A DNA stretch of 54,251 bases from Lachnospiraceae bacterium (lineage in GTDB: Bacteria; Bacillota; Clostridia; Lachnospirales; Lachnospiraceae), in the NCBI GenBank assembly GCA_021199655.1, contig JAJQHQ010000016.1, positions 1 to 54,251 of the forward strand, given 5' to 3'. Below the pieces are notes generated by a model. That model was given only the letters and a program-made list of their open reading frames with translations. It had not been told where the DNA came from and searched no databases. Of this stretch, positions 10,816 through 22,214 are shown in pieces; position 1 is the stretch's first letter; each line of letters starts with the position of its first letter. The translations under genes were made by a program, and so were the position numbers.

Positions 10816-11145
10816 TCACCTGATTGTTCTCAAAAAAACATTTTCATAATCCTGTTTCTGATGATATACCGCTTCTATAAAGGCGATATTTCCCTCAATT
10901 CGATAAAGCATAACATATTGATGTCGTCTAAACATAATCACGCGAATTTCCCGTTTCCTCAATTCAGGATGACTACAATACTGAAGGCTGGCAGCAACCT
11001 CAGACAATGTTTTCTGCGTCTCTCTGGCATCTTCTAATATACTTTTTGCAGCAGTGTCATTAAACAATGTATAGAAAACATAATCCACATACTGTTGAAG
11101 CTGCAGCTCCGCGTTTTTCGTCATGACTACATCATATAAAACCAT
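10816..11145 (-). CDS. RelE/ParE-type toxin
   Basis: 109 residues. The fold signature is visible: an N-terminal strand (LYDVVMTKNAELQLQQYVDYV), a two-helix segment, then HPELRKREIRVIMFRRHQYVMLYRIEGN, typical of RelE/ParE family toxins, and a C-terminal AVYHQKQDYENVF. The start overlaps the antitoxin's 3' end by 14 bp, the standard translational coupling of these pairs. Members either cleave ribosome-bound mRNA or block gyrase, and which one applies here cannot be told. A strong bidirectional terminator follows. Confidence 0.8.
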   Translation of the reverse strand: MVLYDVVMTKNAELQLQQYVDYVFYTLFNDTAAKSILEDARETQKTLSEVAASLQYCSHPELRKREIRVIMFRRHQYVMLYRIEGNIAFIEAVYHQKQDYENVFLRTIR

Positions 11146-11374
11146 ATTGTCTCTCCATCTCGTCTATGACATCTTTCATGGGGCGATAATTTCCTTCTGA
11201 GATATCATTCTCAGACTGATCCAAATCCCTGAGAATCTGCTCTGTTGTAATCGCCGCAAAAGGATTTGCCGGTTTTTTAGAAACAAACAGTTTCTGTGCA
11301 TATTGCATCACTTTCATTCTTGCATCTTCCGGCATGGATTCCATCATAGATACTGTTGCTTCGATAGTACTCAT
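11132..11374 (-). CDS. Antitoxin of the RelE/ParE-type pair
   Basis: 80 residues, with a strong ribosome binding site (GGAAGGGGG). The sequence is helical and acidic toward the C-terminus (ILRDLDQSENDISEGNYRPMKDVIDEMERQYGFI), as expected of an antitoxin whose tail wraps the toxin. I do not recognise a named DNA-binding family in the N-terminal half (SMMESMPEDARMKVMQYAQKL), though it resembles small antitoxins found with ParE-like toxins. It is first in the two-gene operon, and a TATAAT box lies at 11402-11407. Confidence 0.75.
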   Translation of the reverse strand: MSTIEATVSMMESMPEDARMKVMQYAQKLFVSKKPANPFAAITTEQILRDLDQSENDISEGNYRPMKDVIDEMERQYGFI

Positions 11375-11407: not shown

Positions 11408-14400
11408 TCACTGCATAAACCTGCGTCTTCTCCTCGCACTCATGGCAAGCACCAGGAATGCCGCGCCCATCAGCAGCACATAGCCGAACAGCGGCGTATT
11501 ATCCCCGGTCTCCACTGAGGTTGTCTCGCCCGATACGGAGCCGTTGTCAGACACCGTATAGGAAGAAGTATCAGACAGCAGATCGGAGGATGTTGAGTTC
11601 AGAATGGTATCCCAGTCGTCGCTCGATGTCGTGCCATATACTGAGTTCAGCAGAACGGTCTGTATCGACAGATTATCCTGAGTAAACGCTGCCGTGGCGT
11701 TCACTACCTTGATCTGATAACCAAACGAGCGCTGATCCGTGATCACATTGCCGTCCTTGTCCACTTCGGCAATATAAATCGTCACGCCGGAGGCCGATCC
11801 CAGATTCAGCGTCAGCTTCAATGTCTTTTCACTCGCGTTGTCCAGTGTCATGGCAATCGGGTCGGCATAGAGTTCTGTGAGATCCTCATCCTTGAAAAGC
11901 CCCACGTAAAATGTCTCGCTCACCGCTTTCTGCGTCGTTCCCTCGTAAACACGTTTTGTGAGATAAAGTGTTACCTTCGAGGCTTTCAGCTTATTCGTCA
12001 CCGTCACCGACTGCGTACTCCCTTTGGAAATCGTTACAGTCGGCTTGTCGACCGATACTACATAGGAGAACGTGGAAGAATCTGTGATGCGGGTGCCGCT
12101 CGAATCCACTTCTGCGATATAGTAGGTCATGCTGTTCTCGCCGGAGAGCAGGATGCGTCTGCGCACCGTGACAGAGGAAGCATTTGAAAGGCTCATCTTC
12201 ACGATCGTCGGCGTATCACTGTAATCCGAGTTCCGGTAAATTCCAAGATAAAATGTATTCGTCACCGCTTCCGCCGTTCCGGAGGAGTCTGTCACATTCA
12301 GTGTCAGCGAAAGCGTTCCGGTGTAACGATAGCCGCCGGGCAGCGACGTATAGACATTCTGCGCCACCATGCTTCGCGTTGTATCCGACATGGTCACCTT
12401 GCCGCTGTTCGTGTAACGGATCGTCAGCGAACTCGTCGATGTCTTCACAATTCCGTACTGATCTGTCTCTGAGAGGTAGTAAACGCCGTCTTTCGTCAGA
12501 TTGGAGAACGTTACAGTCCCGGTAAATCCGCTCACATCCAGCGACACCACATTGCTGACCTTTTTTGTACGGGCTGAATCTGAGAAAAGGGCAAAATAAT
12601 ATGTGTAAGCTCCCTTTGCCTGATACGTGCCCGATGTCGTGTCATAGGCATAGACCTGATAATCTCCCACGTACACCTGCTTGGTAACGGTAAGCTTATA
12701 ATCAGTCGAAACAGTCGCGGCATTCTCGATCGCTACCTCTGTCGTACAGCCCCGCACCACTGTAAATGCAACATCCGGCACCGGCGTATAGCCATCCGGA
12801 GCCGTAATCTCCGTCAGATAATACGTCTCGCCGTCTGTCAGGGCGTTGGTCCATACAATTTCCGTCTCGCCGGAGGTAAACGTCTTGCTGCCAACCGTGC
12901 TGACCTCATAAATCTTGCCGGAGCTGTCCTTGATCGCCAGCTTCGCACCGGAGAGCAGACCGCCATCCGATGAATCCCGCACACTGATCTTTACCGTAGA
13001 ATCGTTCAGCCGATTCTGCACCGTCACCGCCGCTGCCGTATCCCCATATCTGACCGTCACCGCATTCGCGTTCGTGTCCGGATAAGAAACATTGTAGGCA
13101 AATCCGCTCACACCGCCGGCCACTTCCGCGCCGGTACTGTCCGTCTCTCCGATATAAAAGGTCTGCTCTTCCGCCGTCGCTTCCAGCACAAAGGTCACCG
13201 TCTGCGTACTGCCGCCATCCATAGCGATCGCGATCGGTGCACTGCTGTTCGCAGCCGTCGTCAGGGTCGAATCCGTATAAACATTTACTTTCTGCGTTTT
13301 GGCTTCATCTGCGTAAACATCCACATAGAATGTCTCACTTCCCGCCAGCGCTGTCCCATCGCGGTCAAGGACGTTTAAGGTCACAGTCAGAGGTACTGCG
13401 TAGCTAAGTGAGCTCTCCGTTTCCGACTCGGATTCTGTCTCTGTCGCAGCTGCGGTTTCGGATTCTGTCTCCGCTGCTGCCGCTGTTTCCGATTCTGTCT
13501 CCGTCACTGCTGCTGTTTCTGATTCCGTCTCCGTTGCTGCCGTGGTTTCGGATTCCGTCTCCGTTGCTGCTTCCGTCCCCGTTGCTGCCGTGGTTTCGGA
13601 TTCCGTCTCCGTTGCTGCTTCCGTCCCCGTCTCGGTTTCTGTGCCGGTCTCGGTTGCTGCTGCGGTTTCTGACTCTGTCTCCGCCGCTGCTGTGATTCCT
13701 GCTTCCGTCTCTTCTTCCACTCCGGTAGAGAACGCAACCCGCAGCAATGCGGCCTCCGCATCCTTTACCGTCACGGAAGCGGCATAAACCGCTCCGGAAA
13801 GGTCGCCTGTGACCTCCACCGTCGCGGCCGGGGCCAGAACGGTTCCCTGTATGCCATCGGAAAGCTTCAGCGTACCGGTATAATCCACATAGTCATCATC
13901 TTCCAATGCCACAAAGTTATAAATCACATCTCCGGCCTCGAAAGCATCTTCATAATCAACGGTCTTTCCGGAACATTTCATCGCGTAGCCGGAAAAAGCA
14001 AGCTCCTGCTCCGCAGAATCTGCAACCACATTGATCACATAAGCCATATCTGTTACGTCCAGCACTTTGTCTGAAAACAGAGCTTCCAGCTGTGCCTCGT
14101 CCAGATTGCCGTCCTCATCCGCGTAAAGATTGATCACCGTAACGGACTTCGATGTCTTCGCGTCCGCCAAGCTGATGGACAGTTTCTTAAGATCGGTGAG
14201 AAGAGCCTTGCCCTCCTTGCCATCGAGGATCAGTTCCTCCAGATTTAAATCCGCTTCTTCGGCATCCGCTGTCAGTTCATCCGGAATGGTCACCGTCTCC
14301 GCAACAAACAGATAAGACAGCACAGAGGACAGCTTCTTCACCAGACTCTCAAGCTTTATCTTATCTCCGGAATTCTCCCGCTCCGAGCGCTCGGTCTCCT

Positions 14401-14818
14401 CTGTCTCTTTCTTTCCGGTGTTTTTTGATGACGTCTGCTTCCCGGATTCTGTGGTCTCCGCCTCAGTCGCGGATTCCTCGTCCGCAGCGGTCTGAGACTC
14501 TGCTTCAGCAGCCGCCTGTGTCTGCGCTTCCGTTGCAGCCTGTGTCTGCGCTTCCGTTGCCGCCTGTGTCTGTGCCTCTGTAGCCGCCTGCGTCTGTGCC
14601 TCCGTAGCCACCTGCGTCTGCGCCTCTGTAGCTGCCTGCGTCTGCGCCTCCGTAGCCGCCTGCGTCTGTGCTTCCGTCGCCTGCGTCTGTGTCTCGGCCG
14701 CAGCCTGCGCTTCAGTCGACTGGCCTTCTTCTGCAAATCCGGTAACGCTGCACTGCTGCACCAGCAAAGCTGCCGTCAGCAATACTGCAGCTATTTTTTT
14801 CAGCTTCCTCATCCTCAT
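11408..14818 (-). CDS. Wall-anchored surface protein with TEAQTQA repeats and tandem Ig-like domains
   Basis: 1136 residues. Signal peptide at 1-29 (MRMRKLKK, then a hydrophobic core). Residues 35-110 are near-perfect heptad-like repeats of AATEAQTQ, followed by an acidic Ser/Thr region. A globular part near 160-370 precedes a second TE-rich linker (ESETAAATET units, near 380-475). At least five Cna-B-like repeats follow, each with a pattern like LTLNV.D..GT ... FYVGLF, then YYIAEVD. The C-terminus is SVETGDNTP, a membrane span and RRRRR: a sortase-type sorting signal with a non-canonical VETGD in place of LPXTG. An ATG at 14812 is slightly better spaced from AAAGG. It shares its architecture, but not its domain set, with the adhesin at the left edge. 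Confidence 0.9.
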   Translation of the reverse strand: MRMRKLKKIAAVLLTAALLVQQCSVTGFAEEGQSTEAQAAAETQTQATEAQTQAATEAQTQAATEAQTQVATEAQTQAATEAQTQAATEAQTQAATEAQTQAAAEAESQTAADEESATEAETTESGKQTSSKNTGKKETEETERSERENSGDKIKLESLVKKLSSVLSYLFVAETVTIPDELTADAEEADLNLEELILDGKEGKALLTDLKKLSISLADAKTSKSVTVINLYADEDGNLDEAQLEALFSDKVLDVTDMAYVINVVADSAEQELAFSGYAMKCSGKTVDYEDAFEAGDVIYNFVALEDDDYVDYTGTLKLSDGIQGTVLAPAATVEVTGDLSGAVYAASVTVKDAEAALLRVAFSTGVEEETEAGITAAAETESETAAATETGTETETGTEAATETESETTAATGTEAATETESETTAATETESETAAVTETESETAAAAETESETAAATETESESETESSLSYAVPLTVTLNVLDRDGTALAGSETFYVDVYADEAKTQKVNVYTDSTLTTAANSSAPIAIAMDGGSTQTVTFVLEATAEEQTFYIGETDSTGAEVAGGVSGFAYNVSYPDTNANAVTVRYGDTAAAVTVQNRLNDSTVKISVRDSSDGGLLSGAKLAIKDSSGKIYEVSTVGSKTFTSGETEIVWTNALTDGETYYLTEITAPDGYTPVPDVAFTVVRGCTTEVAIENAATVSTDYKLTVTKQVYVGDYQVYAYDTTSGTYQAKGAYTYYFALFSDSARTKKVSNVVSLDVSGFTGTVTFSNLTKDGVYYLSETDQYGIVKTSTSSLTIRYTNSGKVTMSDTTRSMVAQNVYTSLPGGYRYTGTLSLTLNVTDSSGTAEAVTNTFYLGIYRNSDYSDTPTIVKMSLSNASSVTVRRRILLSGENSMTYYIAEVDSSGTRITDSSTFSYVVSVDKPTVTISKGSTQSVTVTNKLKASKVTLYLTKRVYEGTTQKAVSETFYVGLFKDEDLTELYADPIAMTLDNASEKTLKLTLNLGSASGVTIYIAEVDKDGNVITDQRSFGYQIKVVNATAAFTQDNLSIQTVLLNSVYGTTSSDDWDTILNSTSSDLLSDTSSYTVSDNGSVSGETTSVETGDNTPLFGYVLLMGAAFLVLAMSARRRRRFMQ

Positions 14819-14910: not shown

Positions 14911-15540
14911 TTATTTTGTACCGAAAATCCGGTCTCCCGCGTCCCCGAGACCCGGAACGATGTAGCCGTGTTCATTCAGATGATCGTCCAGCGCTCCGAT
15001 ATACATATCTACGTCCGGGTGCGCCTTTTTCATCGCCTCAATTCCTTCCGGGGCAGCAATGATGCACATAAAACGAATGCTCTTGCAGCCCTTATCCTTC
15101 AGCATCTGGATCGCAGCCACCGCAGAGCCGCCCGTAGCCAGCATCGGATCCACCACGAATACTTCTCTCTCGTCACAGTCTGCCGGGAGCTTGCAGTAAT
15201 ACTCCACCGGCTTTAAAGTCTCCGGATCACGGTAAAGGCCAATGTGTCCCACTTTTGCCGCCGGCATCATCGCCAGCATACCGTCCACCATGCCAAGTCC
15301 GGCACGAAGGATCGGAACCACCGCAAGCTTCTTTCCGCTCAGCTCTTTCACGGTTGTCTTTGCGATCGGCGTCTCGATCTCAACGTCCTGAAGCTTCAGG
15401 TCACGCGTCGCTTCATAACACATATACATGGCAATCTCACCGATCATTGCCCGAAAGTCACGGGATCCGGTCTCTTTTCTCCGAATGATGCCGATCTTGT
15501 GCTGAATCACCGGATGGTCCATGATCATTATCTTCTGCAT
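14911..15540 (-). CDS. upp: Uracil phosphoribosyltransferase
   Basis: 209 residues from the ATG at 15540, which has the ribosome binding site AGGAGGAGA. It makes UMP from uracil and PRPP for pyrimidine salvage. The sequence matches the family along its whole length: the start [34 protein letters not shown], the PRPP-binding [14 protein letters not shown], and the terminal [18 protein letters not shown]. It is the last gene of a four-gene minus-strand cluster whose order (ywlC, ywlE-like, rpiB, upp) recalls the B. subtilis ywlC-upp region. A 170-bp gap separates it from rpiB. Confidence 0.96.
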
Positions 15541-15710
15541 TTTCTCTCCTCCTGAACATATAAAAAACAACAGTAGTCATTTCCTGAAATCCGCGCCTGC
15601 ACCGTTTTACCGGAACCGCACGTCACGTTAAGCGTTTTCATAAATTTTCTGTATTTTACCACAGAAATATGTCCAAATCTTTTAGATATTCTTAAGGTTG
15701 CTGCAGCCCC

Positions 15711-16142
15711 TCACTCTTCATCAATCATCCGCACTCTGCGCGCATGGCGTTCCGCCCCGGAAAATGGAGTATTCAGGAACGTCTCCGTGATCATCACCGC
15801 AAGTCCCGGTCCAGTGACCCTCGCGCCCATACAGAGAATGTTCGCATCATTGTGCATACGGGTGGCTTCCGCGCTGAAGCAGTCGCCGCAAAGCGCCGCA
15901 CGGATTCCTTTATAACGATTGGCTGTCATTGACATGCCGATGCCGGTCCCGCAGATCAGAATGCCTTTTTCGGCACGTCCCGAAAGAATTTCCTGTACGA
16001 CCGCCTTTGCGTAGACCGGATAGTCCACCGCATCCGCGGACCAGGTACCGCAGTCCTTATACTCGATCCCTTTTTCATCCAGATACTTCAGAATCTCCAG
16101 CTTCAGGCCGTAGCCCGCCTGATCACAACCCACTGCTAACAT
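15711..16142 (-). CDS. rpiB: RpiB/LacA/LacB-family sugar-phosphate isomerase
   Basis: 143 residues, the normal size. The family interconverts ribose 5-phosphate and ribulose 5-phosphate (or 6-phosphogalactoses in LacAB). Diagnostic segments are AVGCDQAGYGLK at the N-terminus, CGTGIGMSMTANRYKGIRAALC with the active-site cysteine, and NDANILCMGAR. The start has the ribosome binding site TGAGGAGG and overlaps the 3' end of the phosphatase-like gene by 7 bp, so the two are translationally coupled. No sugar-uptake genes are nearby, which favours the housekeeping RpiB role. Confidence 0.92.
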   Translation of the reverse strand: MLAVGCDQAGYGLKLEILKYLDEKGIEYKDCGTWSADAVDYPVYAKAVVQEILSGRAEKGILICGTGIGMSMTANRYKGIRAALCGDCFSAEATRMHNDANILCMGARVTGPGLAVMITETFLNTPFSGAERHARRVRMIDEE

Positions 16143-16603
16143 AGTAATTCCTCCTCATTTAACTGTACTACCAGTTTTTTGATCAATGCTTCCAGCACTG
16201 AATAACACTGCCCATAATCCGCGAGAGAACCGCCGTACGGATTCTGCGGCCCTTCCGCCTCGCCGACAAAGCGATGGAGTACCTGCACCATCTCCTCATG
16301 CTGAGGTGCAAATGTTTCCAGCACTTTTTCCCTGACCTCATCTGTAAAAACCAGCATCAGAGTACGCTCATCGAAATCCTCCCGCACAAGCGGGTCACTC
16401 ATGTGTTCTTTCATTGTCAGTCCATTGCCCGCCAGCACTGCCTCTGCCTTCGGATTGATCGGCTCCGGAAACAGCACGACAAGCCCTTTTGACGTCACGT
16501 CCAGCTCATCGAGCAGGTATTTGCTCTGCAGGATCGCCTCAGCCATAGGCCCCGCCGCCGTGTCCGCCTGACTCACAAAAATCAGTCTGTCAAATTTTTT
16601 CAA
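16136..16603 (-). CDS. Low-molecular-weight phosphatase-fold protein with lost catalytic residues (ywlE position)
   Basis: 155 residues with the length and secondary-structure layout of low-molecular-weight protein phosphatases, including GPMAEAIL after the P-loop and NPYGGSLADY near the end. The catalytic loop, normally C-x-G-N-T-C-R-S, reads SQADTAAG at residues 11-18. The nucleophilic Cys is Ser11, the essential Arg is Ala17, and the general-acid Asp of the DP[YF]GG motif is Asn122. An active family enzyme cannot be formed from these residues, so this is probably a pseudo-phosphatase with a binding or regulatory role. The gene lies between ywlC and rpiB, exactly where B. subtilis has ywlE, the protein-arginine phosphatase. 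The reading frame is intact and coupled to rpiB, which argues against simple decay. Confidence 0.85.
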   Translation of the reverse strand: MKKFDRLIFVSQADTAAGPMAEAILQSKYLLDELDVTSKGLVVLFPEPINPKAEAVLAGNGLTMKEHMSDPLVREDFDERTLMLVFTDEVREKVLETFAPQHEEMVQVLHRFVGEAEGPQNPYGGSLADYGQCYSVLEALIKKLVVQLNEEELLC

Positions 16604-16649: not shown

Positions 16650-17696
16650 CTACACCCCGATCACCTGATGGCCGGCCGCTTTCATCAGCCGGTTCATGAT
16701 CGCCGCCCCCATCTGCGGCGTCTCAAAGGATTCCGAGTAGATCACAGAAACCTCCAGAAGGTCGAATTCCCGCAGGATCGCGTACAGATGCTGCGCGATG
16801 GTAAGCTCATGATCCCGGGAACCAATGGATCGGACGATCGCGTGGGAATAGCCGTCAAACGTCTCGTCTGCGGCAATGACTCCCGCTTTCCGTCCCGCAG
16901 CGGACTGGGCCGCTGTCAGCTCATTGATCTTCTCCTGCACGCGCTCCCGCTCGCCTTCCACAATAAACAGCGGCGCTTTCGGTGCGTAGTGGCGATATTT
17001 CATCCCGGGTGCTTTGGGCCGGATAGAAGGATCATCCGCAAGAAGCCCCCGGTCCATCCGCACTTCACCAACCACCTGACTTAACATCTCCTGGCTGATA
17101 AAGCCCGGACGCAGGATCACAGGAATATCTTCCGTCAGGTCCACGATCGTAGATTCCAGACCGATGGAAACAGGTCCTCCGTCAATGATCATATCGATCA
17201 CACCGTCCATATCCTCCGCGACATGCTGTGCAGTCGTCGGGCTTGGACGTCCGGAAGTATTCGCGCTTGGCGCGGCCACATAGCCGCCTCCCGCACAGAT
17301 CAATGCGCGCGCAATCTCGTTGTCCGGCATGCGCACGGCCACCGTATCCAGACCGCCGGTCGTCGCATACGGCACTTCCGCTGACTTTTTCAGAACCATC
17401 GTCAGCGGTCCCGGCCAGAATGCGTCTGAAAGAAGCTTCGCCTGCGCCGGGAGTCCCTCGGTAATCCTCCCGATTGCCTCCCATTTTGCGATATGAACGA
17501 TCAGGGGGTTGTCCGACGGCCTGCCCTTCGCCCGGTAGATCTTCGCAGAAGCTTCCGGATCCAGTGCGTTCGCGCCAAGGCCGTATACCGTCTCCGTAGG
17601 AAACGCGACCAGACCGCCCTGCCGCAGGATCTCACCGGCGCGGCGGATGCCTTCCTCACGGACGCCTTCACTCATATTTTCTACTTCCGTCTTCAT
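16650..17696 (-). CDS. ywlC: L-threonylcarbamoyladenylate synthase (two-domain Sua5/YwlC type)
   Basis: 348 residues from the ATG at 17696, which has the ribosome binding site AAGGAG. Upstream in-frame starts lack one. The enzyme makes threonylcarbamoyl-AMP from threonine, bicarbonate and ATP, for the t6A modification at position 37 of tRNAs that read ANN codons. The YrdC domain (about residues 20-205) shows GGLVAFPTETVYGLGANA, KGRPSDNPLIVHI and APSANTSGRPSPTTA. The Sua5 domain follows (APGMKYRHYAPKAP ... AIMNRLMKAAGH). It heads the minus-strand cluster with the phosphatase-like gene and rpiB. Confidence 0.94.
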   Translation of the reverse strand: MKTEVENMSEGVREEGIRRAGEILRQGGLVAFPTETVYGLGANALDPEASAKIYRAKGRPSDNPLIVHIAKWEAIGRITEGLPAQAKLLSDAFWPGPLTMVLKKSAEVPYATTGGLDTVAVRMPDNEIARALICAGGGYVAAPSANTSGRPSPTTAQHVAEDMDGVIDMIIDGGPVSIGLESTIVDLTEDIPVILRPGFISQEMLSQVVGEVRMDRGLLADDPSIRPKAPGMKYRHYAPKAPLFIVEGERERVQEKINELTAAQSAAGRKAGVIAADETFDGYSHAIVRSIGSRDHELTIAQHLYAILREFDLLEVSVIYSESFETPQMGAAIMNRLMKAAGHQVIGV

Positions 17697-17808
17697 TCCC
17701 CATTCTCCTTCACGGACGTTTTCTTTCTGACACAGGATCACATGTCTTTTTCCAGTCGTTTCGTCTGCACCACAGGAACTCTGTGTCCGCCGCTGCCTCA
17801 TTTCAAAC

Positions 17809-19210: not shown

Positions 19211-20098
19211 CTATCCCCTCAGATATGCCAGAATCCCGTCACAGATGGCCTGTGCCACCCGATCCTGATACGCTTCCTCCTGAAGCAGAGCCTCTTCCTC
19301 CGGATTTGTCAGAAATCCGCATTCCACGATCACAGTCGTGCTGACAGAACGCTTCAATATGTAATATGTCGTATTCCCTTTCTGCACCCGCGGCCGTTCG
19401 ATTGCAAGTTCCGTGTTCAGGCACTCCTGAATCGCCGCCGCCAGTTTCTCCCCTTCCGCGGACTGTTCATAATAAAAGACCTGCGGTCCTTTCACGGACG
19501 AATCGTCCGGATAGCTGTTCTGATGAATGCTAACTGTCAGAATGGGATTTTCTTCCGCGATCCGTGCAACGCGGCGTTCCATATCCTGCGCTTTTTTACT
19601 AGAGGCATCCTCGTCATAAAGGCCGTCCTCCGTCTCACGAGTCAGCACGGCTTCGTAGCCTTCCGCCTCAAGCAGAGCCGACAGCTTTTTCGCGTAAATC
19701 AGATTCAGTTCCTTCTCGCTGGCGCCGCTCGCTCCTACCATACCGGAATCAAAACCGCCATGTCCCGGATCAATAACGATCCGGTTGGTGTTCACCCCAT
19801 CCGCAGCATCTGCGGTGTCCGAGATTTCCGCGTCGCCCTGCGTTTTTTCCGCGCGGTGATCTGCACCATAAGCAGGCAAAAGCACAGCCGCAGCCAGCAG
19901 AACCAATATCATGAAGTATTGGATCAGTTTCTCAGCCCTTTGTTTTTGAGTTTCACCGGTATCGCAATTTTCGTTGGCATCATCTTTTTTGTTGGCACTG
20001 TTTTTTTCGTTGGCATTATCTTTTTCTTTAGTATTATCTTTTTCGTTGTGATCGTTATTTCCCACGTTTTGCACACTCTGATCGCAAATCTCTATCAT
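19211..20098 (-). CDS. N-acetylmuramoyl-L-alanine amidase (Amidase_3), CwlD-like
   Basis: About 295 residues from the ATG at 20098. It cleaves the bond between muramic acid and the peptide stem of peptidoglycan. The zinc-site motifs are all present: VIDPGHGG, the Glu in ASEKELNL, SIHQNSY and VECGFLTN. Before them is one membrane span (MILVLLAAAVLLPAYG), so the enzyme is exported or membrane-tethered. The first 60 residues are a striking Asn/Lys/Asp/Glu-rich tract made of NEKDN-like repeats. A TTG further upstream (20185) is in frame, but it lies in the U-tract of the preceding gene's terminator, so I reject it. The ribosome binding site of the chosen start is weak. The size and single domain fit the cortex amidase CwlD, but this is not certain. 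Confidence 0.85.
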   Translation of the reverse strand: MIEICDQSVQNVGNNDHNEKDNTKEKDNANEKNSANKKDDANENCDTGETQKQRAEKLIQYFMILVLLAAAVLLPAYGADHRAEKTQGDAEISDTADAADGVNTNRIVIDPGHGGFDSGMVGASGASEKELNLIYAKKLSALLEAEGYEAVLTRETEDGLYDEDASSKKAQDMERRVARIAEENPILTVSIHQNSYPDDSSVKGPQVFYYEQSAEGEKLAAAIQECLNTELAIERPRVQKGNTTYYILKRSVSTTVIVECGFLTNPEEEALLQEEAYQDRVAQAICDGILAYLRG

Positions 20099-20183
20099 TC
20101 TATGCGATCCGGGTGCAGAAATATTCAACCCGGCGCCCTGACGGAGCGTTTTTGTTGTATAGGAACAAAGCTTCCTATAAAGC

Positions 20184-20224
20184 AAAAAATCCCGACCCGT
20201 ACGTTTTCACAATACAGGCCGGGA
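20184..20224 (-). terminator. Intrinsic terminator after the NlpC/P60 gene
   Basis: On the minus strand TCCCGGCC pairs with GGGTCGGGA (one bulge) and is followed by TTTTTT. It separates the NlpC/P60 gene from the amidase gene and argues that the amidase has its own promoter. Confidence 0.75.
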
Positions 20225-20285: not shown

Positions 20286-22214
20286 TTACGACCAGTAACG
20301 AAGTGCCTTAAGTATATTACTGCTGTAATTATAGTTCGATATTTTGATGCCGCCCGTTGGGTACGCCGCCGAGTTACTCGCGTGCACGATCTTGCCGTCG
20401 CCAATGTAGATCGCCACATGAGACGCATAACTCGAGCTGCTGGAAGACCCATAGAAGATAAGGTCGCCGGGCAGAAGGCTGTCGGTACTCACCTCCACCT
20501 CCACCGGAGTAACGGAAGTGGAAAGAGCTTTCATCTGCGAATCCGCGCTGTGCGGCAGTGTGATACCAAAGTAAGCAAATACCGCCATCGTAAATCCGGA
20601 GCAGTCTGCACCGTTCGTCAGACTGGAGCCGCCGTATTTATACGGATTGCCCACAAACTGCAGCGCATAGTTCGCAATCTGTGATCCCAATGTGCTGCCG
20701 CTGGCAGTTATGCCTTCTTCCGCTGTTACCTTACCGCTCGAACCGATCGTGTAGGTCACAGAACCAACCGTAATGGTCGTTGAAGTCGCCATCTTACCAT
20801 CAGAGTAGAAATAATACTTATATCCGTCAATCGTCTGCAGTCCAGTCAGCATAATCCCCACAGAATCAAAGTAATACGTATCGCCATCGATCGTCTGCAG
20901 TCCGGTCAGCACCTCATAATCATCACTCAGATAATACGTATTGGTCCCGGTCGTAAACCAGCCGGTCGAGCGCGTATTCGTCTGATAACCGCTGGAACCA
21001 TAATAATACTGATTCACCCAGGTACTCGTCACCATCTTGCCGTCACTTCCGAAATAGTACCAGCGTACAGTCCCGCTCACCGTGATCTTCATCCGTGTGC
21101 TGCGAATTGCGACTCCATACGTTGGCCGGAAATAATAGGTGGAAGAACCGACCTTCTTCAATGTTCCGGTCACCTTTTTTGCCGTACTGGTATCGAAATA
21201 ATAAATCTCCCCGCCGATCGCCTGCAGGCCAGTCAGCAGCACACCGTTGGCATTTGCGTAATAATTCTCACTCGAGTTGACCCAGCCGTTGGTCACAAGC
21301 GCTCCATCTGTTCCGAGATAGTAAAAGCTTCCGCTGATCTTCTTTACTCCGGTCTGCTTCACGCCCTTGGATGAAAAATAATATTTATTCCCATCGATCG
21401 TCTGCCAGCCGGTCACCCGGACTCCATTCGAATTGACATAATACTTGCTGCTGCTGATCCATTTACTCTTCTGTACCACACCGTTCGCATTGCAGTAATA
21501 ATATTTCCCGCTGTATTTCACCCAGCAGCTGGCATATCGGACTCCGCTCGACTTAAAGATATAGGTGTTCGAACCGATCGTCTGCTTGCCGGTCACCATC
21601 ACACCCTTGCTGTTCACATATTTTTTGCCGACCCAGGTACTCTTCTGCACCACACCCTTCGAATTCGCGTAATAATACTTGCCGCTCACCTTGAACCAGC
21701 CCGTACTGTACTTCGTCTTCGTCTTGTAATAATAGGTATTCCCTTCCAGAGTCACAAAACCGGTCTTTCTCTTGCCGGTATATTTGCCCTTTGAATTGAC
21801 CCATTTATTGCCGATCCATTTGCTGACCGCCATAGTGCCGTCTGACTGCAGATAATACTTGCCGTACCATTTGGAAACATACAGTATCCCCGTGGACTTA
21901 TTTGCAAAATATTTCTTCTTCGTGCTCGCGTCCGTGATCCAGCCGTACTGCATCTTACCATCCGACGCAAAATAATACATGTTATTGCCGACCGTCACCA
22001 CACCCGTCTGCATGATGCCGCTCTCATTAAAATAATATCTCGCGTTGTCGATCGTCACCAGCCCGACCGCGTATCCCACAGAATCCGAAGTGGTATACAT
22101 CCGCCCGTTCTGCGTCGACACCCAGGCCGCCTCCGAATGTATGCCGGAAGCCAAAAGCAGAATCGACACTGCAAATACAAATGTCAGCAAAACTTTCTCA
22201 GCCTTAATCCTCAT
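20286..22214 (-). CDS. Secreted NlpC/P60 peptidoglycan hydrolase with cell-wall-binding repeats
   Basis: 642 residues. Signal peptide at 1-29 (MRIKAEKVLLTFVFAVSILL). Residues 30-500 are about twenty choline-binding-type repeats of roughly 20 residues, each with a pattern like GWQTI.G.KYYF...G. These bind the envelope. The C-terminal 120 residues form an NlpC/P60 endopeptidase domain with the catalytic Cys in NGADCSGFT, the His in YASHVAIYIGDG and the third polar residue in IVHASN. Such enzymes cut D-glutamyl-diaminopimelate bonds in peptide stems. The ribosome binding site is GAGGG. A clear sigma-A promoter lies at 22279-22307 and a terminator follows the gene. Confidence 0.93.
   Translation of the reverse strand: MRIKAEKVLLTFVFAVSILLLASGIHSEAAWVSTQNGRMYTTSDSVGYAVGLVTIDNARYYFNESGIMQTGVVTVGNNMYYFASDGKMQYGWITDASTKKKYFANKSTGILYVSKWYGKYYLQSDGTMAVSKWIGNKWVNSKGKYTGKRKTGFVTLEGNTYYYKTKTKYSTGWFKVSGKYYYANSKGVVQKSTWVGKKYVNSKGVMVTGKQTIGSNTYIFKSSGVRYASCWVKYSGKYYYCNANGVVQKSKWISSSKYYVNSNGVRVTGWQTIDGNKYYFSSKGVKQTGVKKISGSFYYLGTDGALVTNGWVNSSENYYANANGVLLTGLQAIGGEIYYFDTSTAKKVTGTLKKVGSSTYYFRPTYGVAIRSTRMKITVSGTVRWYYFGSDGKMVTSTWVNQYYYGSSGYQTNTRSTGWFTTGTNTYYLSDDYEVLTGLQTIDGDTYYFDSVGIMLTGLQTIDGYKYYFYSDGKMATSTTITVGSVTYTIGSSGKVTAEEGITASGSTLGSQIANYALQFVGNPYKYGGSSLTNGADCSGFTMAVFAYFGITLPHSADSQMKALSTSVTPVEVEVSTDSLLPGDLIFYGSSSSSSYASHVAIYIGDGKIVHASNSAAYPTGGIKISNYNYSSNILKALRYWS

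Follow-up and report, generated by a model that had tools for sequence, protein, structure and literature searches.

The window analysed here, a stretch of 54,251 nucleotides from a Lachnospiraceae bacterium, corresponds to contig 109 of a genome of 3.98 Mb that is 98.56% complete. On its reverse strand, at 16136–16603, lies an uninterrupted open reading frame of 155 amino acids with a TTG start and, by eye, a GGGGG stretch 7 bases upstream. Its product scores 48.8 bits against the low-molecular-weight (LMW) phosphatase profile PF01451 (LMWPc), for which the cut-off is 23.2, and is referred to here as pseudo-YwlE, since the fold is that of an LMW phosphatase without the catalytic residues. On the same strand, upstream, is the gene for Sua5 (threonylcarbamoyl-AMP synthase; 16650–17801; PF01300 and PF03481), the fusion partner of pseudo-YwlE in relatives, the true start of which may be internal to this reading frame. 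In the window the two are separate genes with no fusion. RpiB (15711–16142, reverse strand) overlaps the pseudo-YwlE gene by exactly 7 bp, and Upp (uracil phosphoribosyltransferase, assigned by Pfam; 14911–15570, reverse strand) closes the syntenic block. The order Sua5–pseudo-YwlE–RpiB–Upp, assigned with Pfam, is the one that we take to surround ywlE in Bacillus subtilis; both the overlap and the synteny had been proposed in a preliminary description of this DNA and are borne out.

Beyond Upp, a 1,136-residue protein with long Thr/Glu/Ala repeats (11408–14818) looks secreted by eye and is matched by none of the Pfam profiles. A ParE-type toxin gene follows (10816–11374; PF05016, 30.5 bits), with an upstream 80-amino-acid frame, likewise without a Pfam match, that may encode the antitoxin. 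On the other side of Sua5, an N-acetylmuramoyl-L-alanine amidase gene (19211–20185) adjoins that of an NlpC/P60 hydrolase with choline-binding-type cell-wall repeats (20286–22214).

The predicted structure of pseudo-YwlE is that of an LMW phosphatase, as had been claimed. AlphaFold2, run on 106 aligned rows, gave a pLDDT of 96.1 and a pTM of 0.91, and a Foldseek search with this model was led by YwlE (4pic, TMq 0.88), other LMW phosphatases being recovered as well. YwlE also headed a sequence search of the PDB (4pic, E 2.5e-11, followed by 4kk4 and 4kk3). The P-loop reads SQADTAAG (residues 11–18; 16550–16573, reverse strand), in agreement with the preliminary description, compared with CTGNTCRS in active relatives, and departs from the C(X)4CR(S/T) pattern. 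The general acid Asp of the DPYGG motif is indeed replaced by Asn, but at residue 121 (16241–16243, reverse strand) rather than 122. These assignments, which rest on the sequence and its homologues, leave the protein without nucleophile, arginine and acid.

We compared pseudo-YwlE with its close homologues, taken as the query plus the best 120 of 1,099 relatives from a protein search. The loop Cys and Arg are absent from all 121. Position 11 is Ser in 110 and Thr in 11, position 17 is never Arg, and Asp14–Thr15 is invariant; Cys133 and Cys155 are present in 118 and 91 of the same 121, respectively. The claim that all three catalytic residues are replaced does not extend to the whole of this group, since the acid position is Asp in 35 (Asn in 81, Ser in 5). 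A dead loop conserved in 121 of 121 sequences is more than chance. Thr15, also found in all 121, occupies P-loop position 5 and is the YwlE-type residue; according to an excerpt of one report (PMC8001253), Thr at this position steers YwlE and PtpB to phospho-arginine. Database names, where given among the best 120 of 1,099, are phosphotyrosine protein phosphatase or protein-tyrosine-phosphatase, names that are very likely wrong for members that have neither Cys nor Arg.

Within the genus, 33 of 36 genomes match pseudo-YwlE, and Cys and Arg are absent from all 33 loci read. A further 24 genomes of the order yielded 12 matches, with identities of 33% or below throughout. Named records recovered by a family alignment search were mostly from uncultured Lachnospiraceae, together with isolates of Robinsoniella, Parablautia and Hominisplanchenecus. 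Cys is absent from all of the best 80 named loci kept and Arg is present in 13, in what is a best-match sample biased to near kin. The loop is SNSDTCR[GS] in the isolates Robinsoniella peoriensis and Hominisplanchenecus faecis; a Murimonas intestini record with the same loop carries the title UNVERIFIED_CONTAM. A chance loss in one genome, or a sequencing error, was considered and is excluded by the 121 of 121 homologues (query plus best 120 of 1,099) and by the isolates with SNSDTCR[GS].

Pseudo-YwlE is under purifying selection about as strong as that on Sua5. A codon model returned omega values of 0.089 for pseudo-YwlE and 0.082 for Sua5 (33 same-genus sequences each), and of 0.045 for RpiB and 0.031 for Upp (28 sequences each), dS being saturated in many same-genus pairs. 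Pairwise NG86 medians for pairs with dS below 1.5 were 0.185 for pseudo-YwlE (194 pairs), 0.156 for Sua5 (271), 0.090 for RpiB (167) and 0.050 for Upp (112), and the eight closest pseudo-YwlE pairs gave 0.02–0.12. The value of 0.089, far from 1, makes a gene simply in decay very unlikely. Together with the pLDDT of 96.1 and a dead loop fixed across the genus, it lends strong support to the retained, presumably non-catalytic role that the preliminary description had suggested. That a selected pseudophosphatase sits at the ywlE position is, in our judgement, close to certain, and the protein is predicted to be catalytically inactive.

Loss of the catalytic residues is graded across the family. 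We surveyed 250 genomes from 249 genera, of which 121 match pseudo-YwlE and 129 do not. Loci were read as stop-to-stop frames, seven matches containing one stop within the matched stretch; 120 were read and 118 counted, after dropping L106 (a second copy in G093) and L128 (a frame without the P-loop stretch) and with the weak matches in G225 and G148 excluded. Strictly intact copies (CxGNTCR plus Asp) number 11 of 118. At least one of Cys, Arg and the acid Asp is lost in 98, and all three in 7, the window's copy included. Position 11 is Ser in 44, Cys in 41, Asp in 17, Gly and Ala in 7 each and Glu in 2, so that Cys is absent from 77 of the 118 copies; Arg is present in 87 and the acid Asp in 59. 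Of the 107 copies outside the strictly intact class, nine retain Cys, Arg and Asp and differ elsewhere in the loop; judged by these residues, they may be active.

The series CTGNTCRS, SNSDTCRS (Cys lost, Arg present) and SNSDTAVG occurs among living members of the family, and as near relatives of the window read SNSDTCR[GS], Cys was lost before Arg in the window's lineage. On a tree of 133 rows and 143 columns, which included 10 of the 33 same-genus rows and left out the catalytic columns, we count a minimum of 17 changes for the state of Cys and of 18 for that of Arg; this tree, from a quick search under a single-matrix model, is poorly resolved, with 62 of 130 inner branches open. The gene itself is dispensable over evolutionary time, 129 of the 250 family genomes being matchless. 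In 59 matchless genomes (19 with McsB, 40 without), the roughly 1.5 kb that follow Sua5 contain no LMW phosphatase. Adding G261, which has its copy elsewhere, brings the stretches downstream of Sua5 to 60, none with an LMW phosphatase and 38 with RpiB or Upp.

The cognate arginine kinase also appears to be in retreat. By its sequence, pseudo-YwlE is encoded by the ywlE orthologue of a bacterium in which McsB was not found: a profile search of the 98.56% complete genome gave no PF00217 match. PF00217 and NF002194 matched none of 14 control genomes, B. subtilis among them. The NF002194 search therefore carries no weight, and since PF00217 was silent in the controls yet had matches at the level of the class (83 of 118 genomes) and of the family (53 of 250), its presence is used as a relative measure. 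A CtsR profile also gave no match in the window's genome and is given no weight, just 1 of the 14 controls having matched. A search for a second, intact YwlE in the same genome, which the preliminary description had called for, returned an intact LMWPc protein, but one of phosphotyrosine type, with the P-loop CWGNICRS and Ile at position 5 (C107:29330–29755). The neighbours of this gene resemble, by eye, cobalamin synthesis genes.

Among the 118 family loci, those in genomes with McsB comprise 10 strictly intact and 12 other copies, and those in genomes without it 1 and 95 (Fisher P=6.6e-8, ignoring kinship). Under the looser criterion that Cys, Arg and Asp all be present, the counts are 10 and 12 with McsB and 10 and 86 without (P=4e-4, again ignoring kinship). 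A tree-aware pair test of the intact state against McsB was not significant, with only two supported pairs. Ranked by score, the top 11 McsB proteins of the family (E of 4.8e-59 or better) include those of all 10 McsB-positive genomes with strictly intact YwlE; the eleventh genome, G303, gave no Sua5 match. Twelve McsB-positive genomes have a non-intact copy at the ywlE position, and 19 examined (L168–L186) have none downstream of Sua5. We also aligned 24 McsB proteins of the family with three from outside it. Guanidino kinases carry the motif NEEDH; its first Glu is kept in 5 of 5 McsB proteins of the family that accompany intact YwlE and replaced in 14 of the 19 others (7 of 12 with degenerate YwlE, 7 of 7 with no matching YwlE). 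Replaced motifs read NGDDH, NADDH and similar. As NEEDH loss accompanies YwlE loss, kinase and phosphatase seem to decay together and, to judge from this motif, the arginine kinase too may be turning into a pseudoenzyme in those genomes.

What has been kept in the degenerate copies is a different part of the protein. Most of their best conserved positions fall in a single loop, KGLVVLFPEPINPKAEAV in the window (residues 39–56; 16436–16489, reverse strand), with the family pattern RGxVVLFxEPxNxK. All 107 copies outside the strictly intact class, which come from 106 genera, have Phe45 and Pro48; Gly40, Glu47, Lys52 and Asn50 are found in 105, 103, 99 and 97 of these, respectively. In contrast, 30 of the same 107 copies retain Cys, 39 retain Asn14, 76 Arg and 48 the acid Asp. 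In its strict form, LFxEPxN, the motif occurs in 11 of 11 intact copies, 81 of 107 others and 0 of 7 outgroup copies. Since it is found in intact and degenerate copies, the loop seems to predate the catalytic loss and to have outlived it. In the model, residues 41–50 follow the second strand and precede the second helix, a position presumably beside the mouth of the active site in the LMW phosphatase fold. The loop is the strongest hint in the sequences that pseudo-YwlE may have a binding function.

Sua5 is the neighbour most often found with this gene. Adjacency, scored within loci of about 3.4 kb, some of which are ended by contig ends, was observed in 120 family loci for Sua5 in 117, RpiB in 68 and Upp in 22, and in 29 for Sua5 alone. 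Sua5 and the phosphatase domain are encoded together at 16 loci, in a single frame of 503–562 codons without a stop, which requires at least seven changes on the 133-row tree, and Pfam confirmed the domain order in all seven of the Sua5 fusions scanned. Two frames join LMWPc to LacAB_rpiB (L143:1453–2376, with STNNTCRS, and L150:1072–1965, with CKENTYLS), and a single frame joins Sua5 to Upp (L202, in G116) in a genome without a phosphatase gene at the ywlE position. The RpiB and Sua5–Upp fusions imply that part of the fusion signal is adjacency.

A model of one Sua5 fusion, L097, reached a pTM of 0.80, a score that does not measure interfaces (16 of the 38 alignment rows were fused). Sua5 crystal structures alone cover this model at a TMq of 0.62, roughly what we estimate that an unconstrained third domain would permit, and the model seems to place the phosphatase domain firmly. 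Across the 38 rows, fused or unfused, the Sua5 catalytic domain has many invariant positions. Mirror-tree partial correlations give Sua5 a slight edge over RpiB (0.29 versus 0.22, 67 rows) and were 0.45 for Sua5 versus 0.21 for Upp (36 rows); the test is not relied on for the choice of partner. TsaD is the enzyme that uses the Sua5 product. YwlE counteracts McsB-driven, ClpCP-dependent loss of TsaD in B. subtilis, according to the excerpted text of one study (PMC7546277), and given this protection, the t6A pathway is a plausible setting for a YwlE that has ceased to dephosphorylate.

These observations can be read in several ways. Our preferred reading, which we put forward tentatively, is that pseudo-YwlE is a retired YwlE that now serves as a non-catalytic partner of Sua5. 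YwlE of this family would have borne the additional RGxVVLFxEPxNxK loop while still an enzyme. Once McsB was lost or had diverged, selection on catalysis would have gone; in the window's lineage, Cys would have given way to Ser along with a change of the loop Asn to Asp, and Arg would have been lost later, the fold and the RGxVVLFxEPxNxK loop staying under strong purifying selection throughout. Through that loop, the retired protein might then bind Sua5, the source of threonylcarbamoyl-AMP for t6A formation in tRNA, as a partner or serve as its third domain, for example by holding Sua5 near the transferase TsaD. Somewhat less probable, at a chance of roughly one in three, is a pseudophosphatase with another partner, such as a Clp-related factor, the active LMW-PTP paralogue or RpiB, the adjacency to Sua5 being that of an old operon. 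Conservation and selection name no partner, an intact LMW-PTP paralogue is encoded in the same genome, RpiB fusions occur, operon neighbours do fuse (as at L202) and the mirror-tree test barely separates Sua5 from RpiB. The link to Sua5 nevertheless persists with neither RpiB nor Upp adjacent in 29 of 120 loci, and among the frames read Sua5 fusions number 16 against two with RpiB. The regulation of RpiB suggested in the preliminary description is weak on the same grounds, RpiB adjoining 68 of 120 copies against 117 for Sua5, the two RpiB fusions notwithstanding.

The remaining alternatives are all improbable. A reader of phospho-arginine (or phosphotyrosine), binding without hydrolysis, as had also been suggested, would fit the Thr kept at P-loop position 5 in 121 of 121 (query plus best 120 of 1,099) and the Arg that 76 of the 107 not strictly intact family copies retain; it is unlikely in a genome with no PF00217 match and in a clade that has lost the phosphate-binding Arg and placed an Asp in the anion-binding loop. 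Relaxed selection after McsB loss, with the gene heading for deletion, might explain the 129 matchless genomes of 250, the highly varied P-loops and the L128 frame that lacks the P-loop stretch. Against this very unlikely course stand the genus omega of 0.089, the confident fold and loop residues invariant in 107 copies from 106 genera. We give as little credence as to any of these to a natural Cys-to-Ser trap, in which Ser would accept and hold phosphate as a slow covalent sensor: Ser is seen more often than any other residue at the nucleophile position (44 of 118), and the title of entry 4kk4 has C7S YwlE crystallised with a phosphorylated serine, but Cys is replaced by Asp, Ala, Gly or Glu in 33 of 118 copies and the window's clade is without Arg and mostly without the acid. 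Equally remote is phosphatase activity by other chemistry, such as one that uses a nucleophile elsewhere in the protein. The conservation of Asp14 and Thr15 (121 of 121), Cys133 (118) and Cys155 (91; all among the query plus best 120 of 1,099) would speak for it; the window's protein, in contrast, has none of Cys, Arg and acid at the catalytic positions, and the kept Cys residues are distant from the loop in sequence.

Pseudo-YwlE resembles the YwlE proteins of B. subtilis and Geobacillus (4kk3, 4pic) in fold (TMq 0.83–0.88), length and Thr at P-loop position 5, but is without Cys, Arg and general acid and has the LFxEPxN loop, in a genome where McsB was not found. With the LMW phosphotyrosine phosphatases Wzb and PtpA it shares the fold, but it has Thr rather than Ile at position 5 and the catalytic residues are absent. 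The LMW phosphatase 4egs of T. tengcongensis, a YwlE-like domain that is presumably fused to RpiB, bears the PDB name RpiB under a title that calls it a phosphatase, and suggests the same neighbour link. In TsaN, Sua5 is also joined to further domains (TsaD–TsaC–SUA5–TcdA, 8ide), with no LMW phosphatase domain named in the entry's title. The eukaryotic pseudophosphatases MK-STYX and PTPRK D2, as excerpted accounts describe them, likewise keep the fold for binding without catalysis, but they belong to another phosphatase superfamily and another kingdom. Searches of the openly licensed literature found nothing on YwlE in Lachnospiraceae, on ywlC with ywlE or on a Sua5–LMW phosphatase fusion, and among the matches listed there no pseudophosphatase title concerned bacterial LMW phosphatases.

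The family offers a natural series of bacterial pseudoenzyme evolution. It suggests that a major group of gut bacteria has given up protein-arginine phosphorylation on more than one occasion, and raises the possibility of a further component in the t6A tRNA pathway, which is nearly universal. We consider it possible, and hold it with less confidence than the partnership in the window itself, that an exaptation runs through the whole family, in which YwlE gained a binding loop, was built into threonylcarbamoyl-AMP synthase as a third, structural component and outlived arginine phosphorylation. If true, this would be a large family of bacterial pseudophosphatases in which every stage from active enzyme to dead, partner-fused domain would be present in living species.
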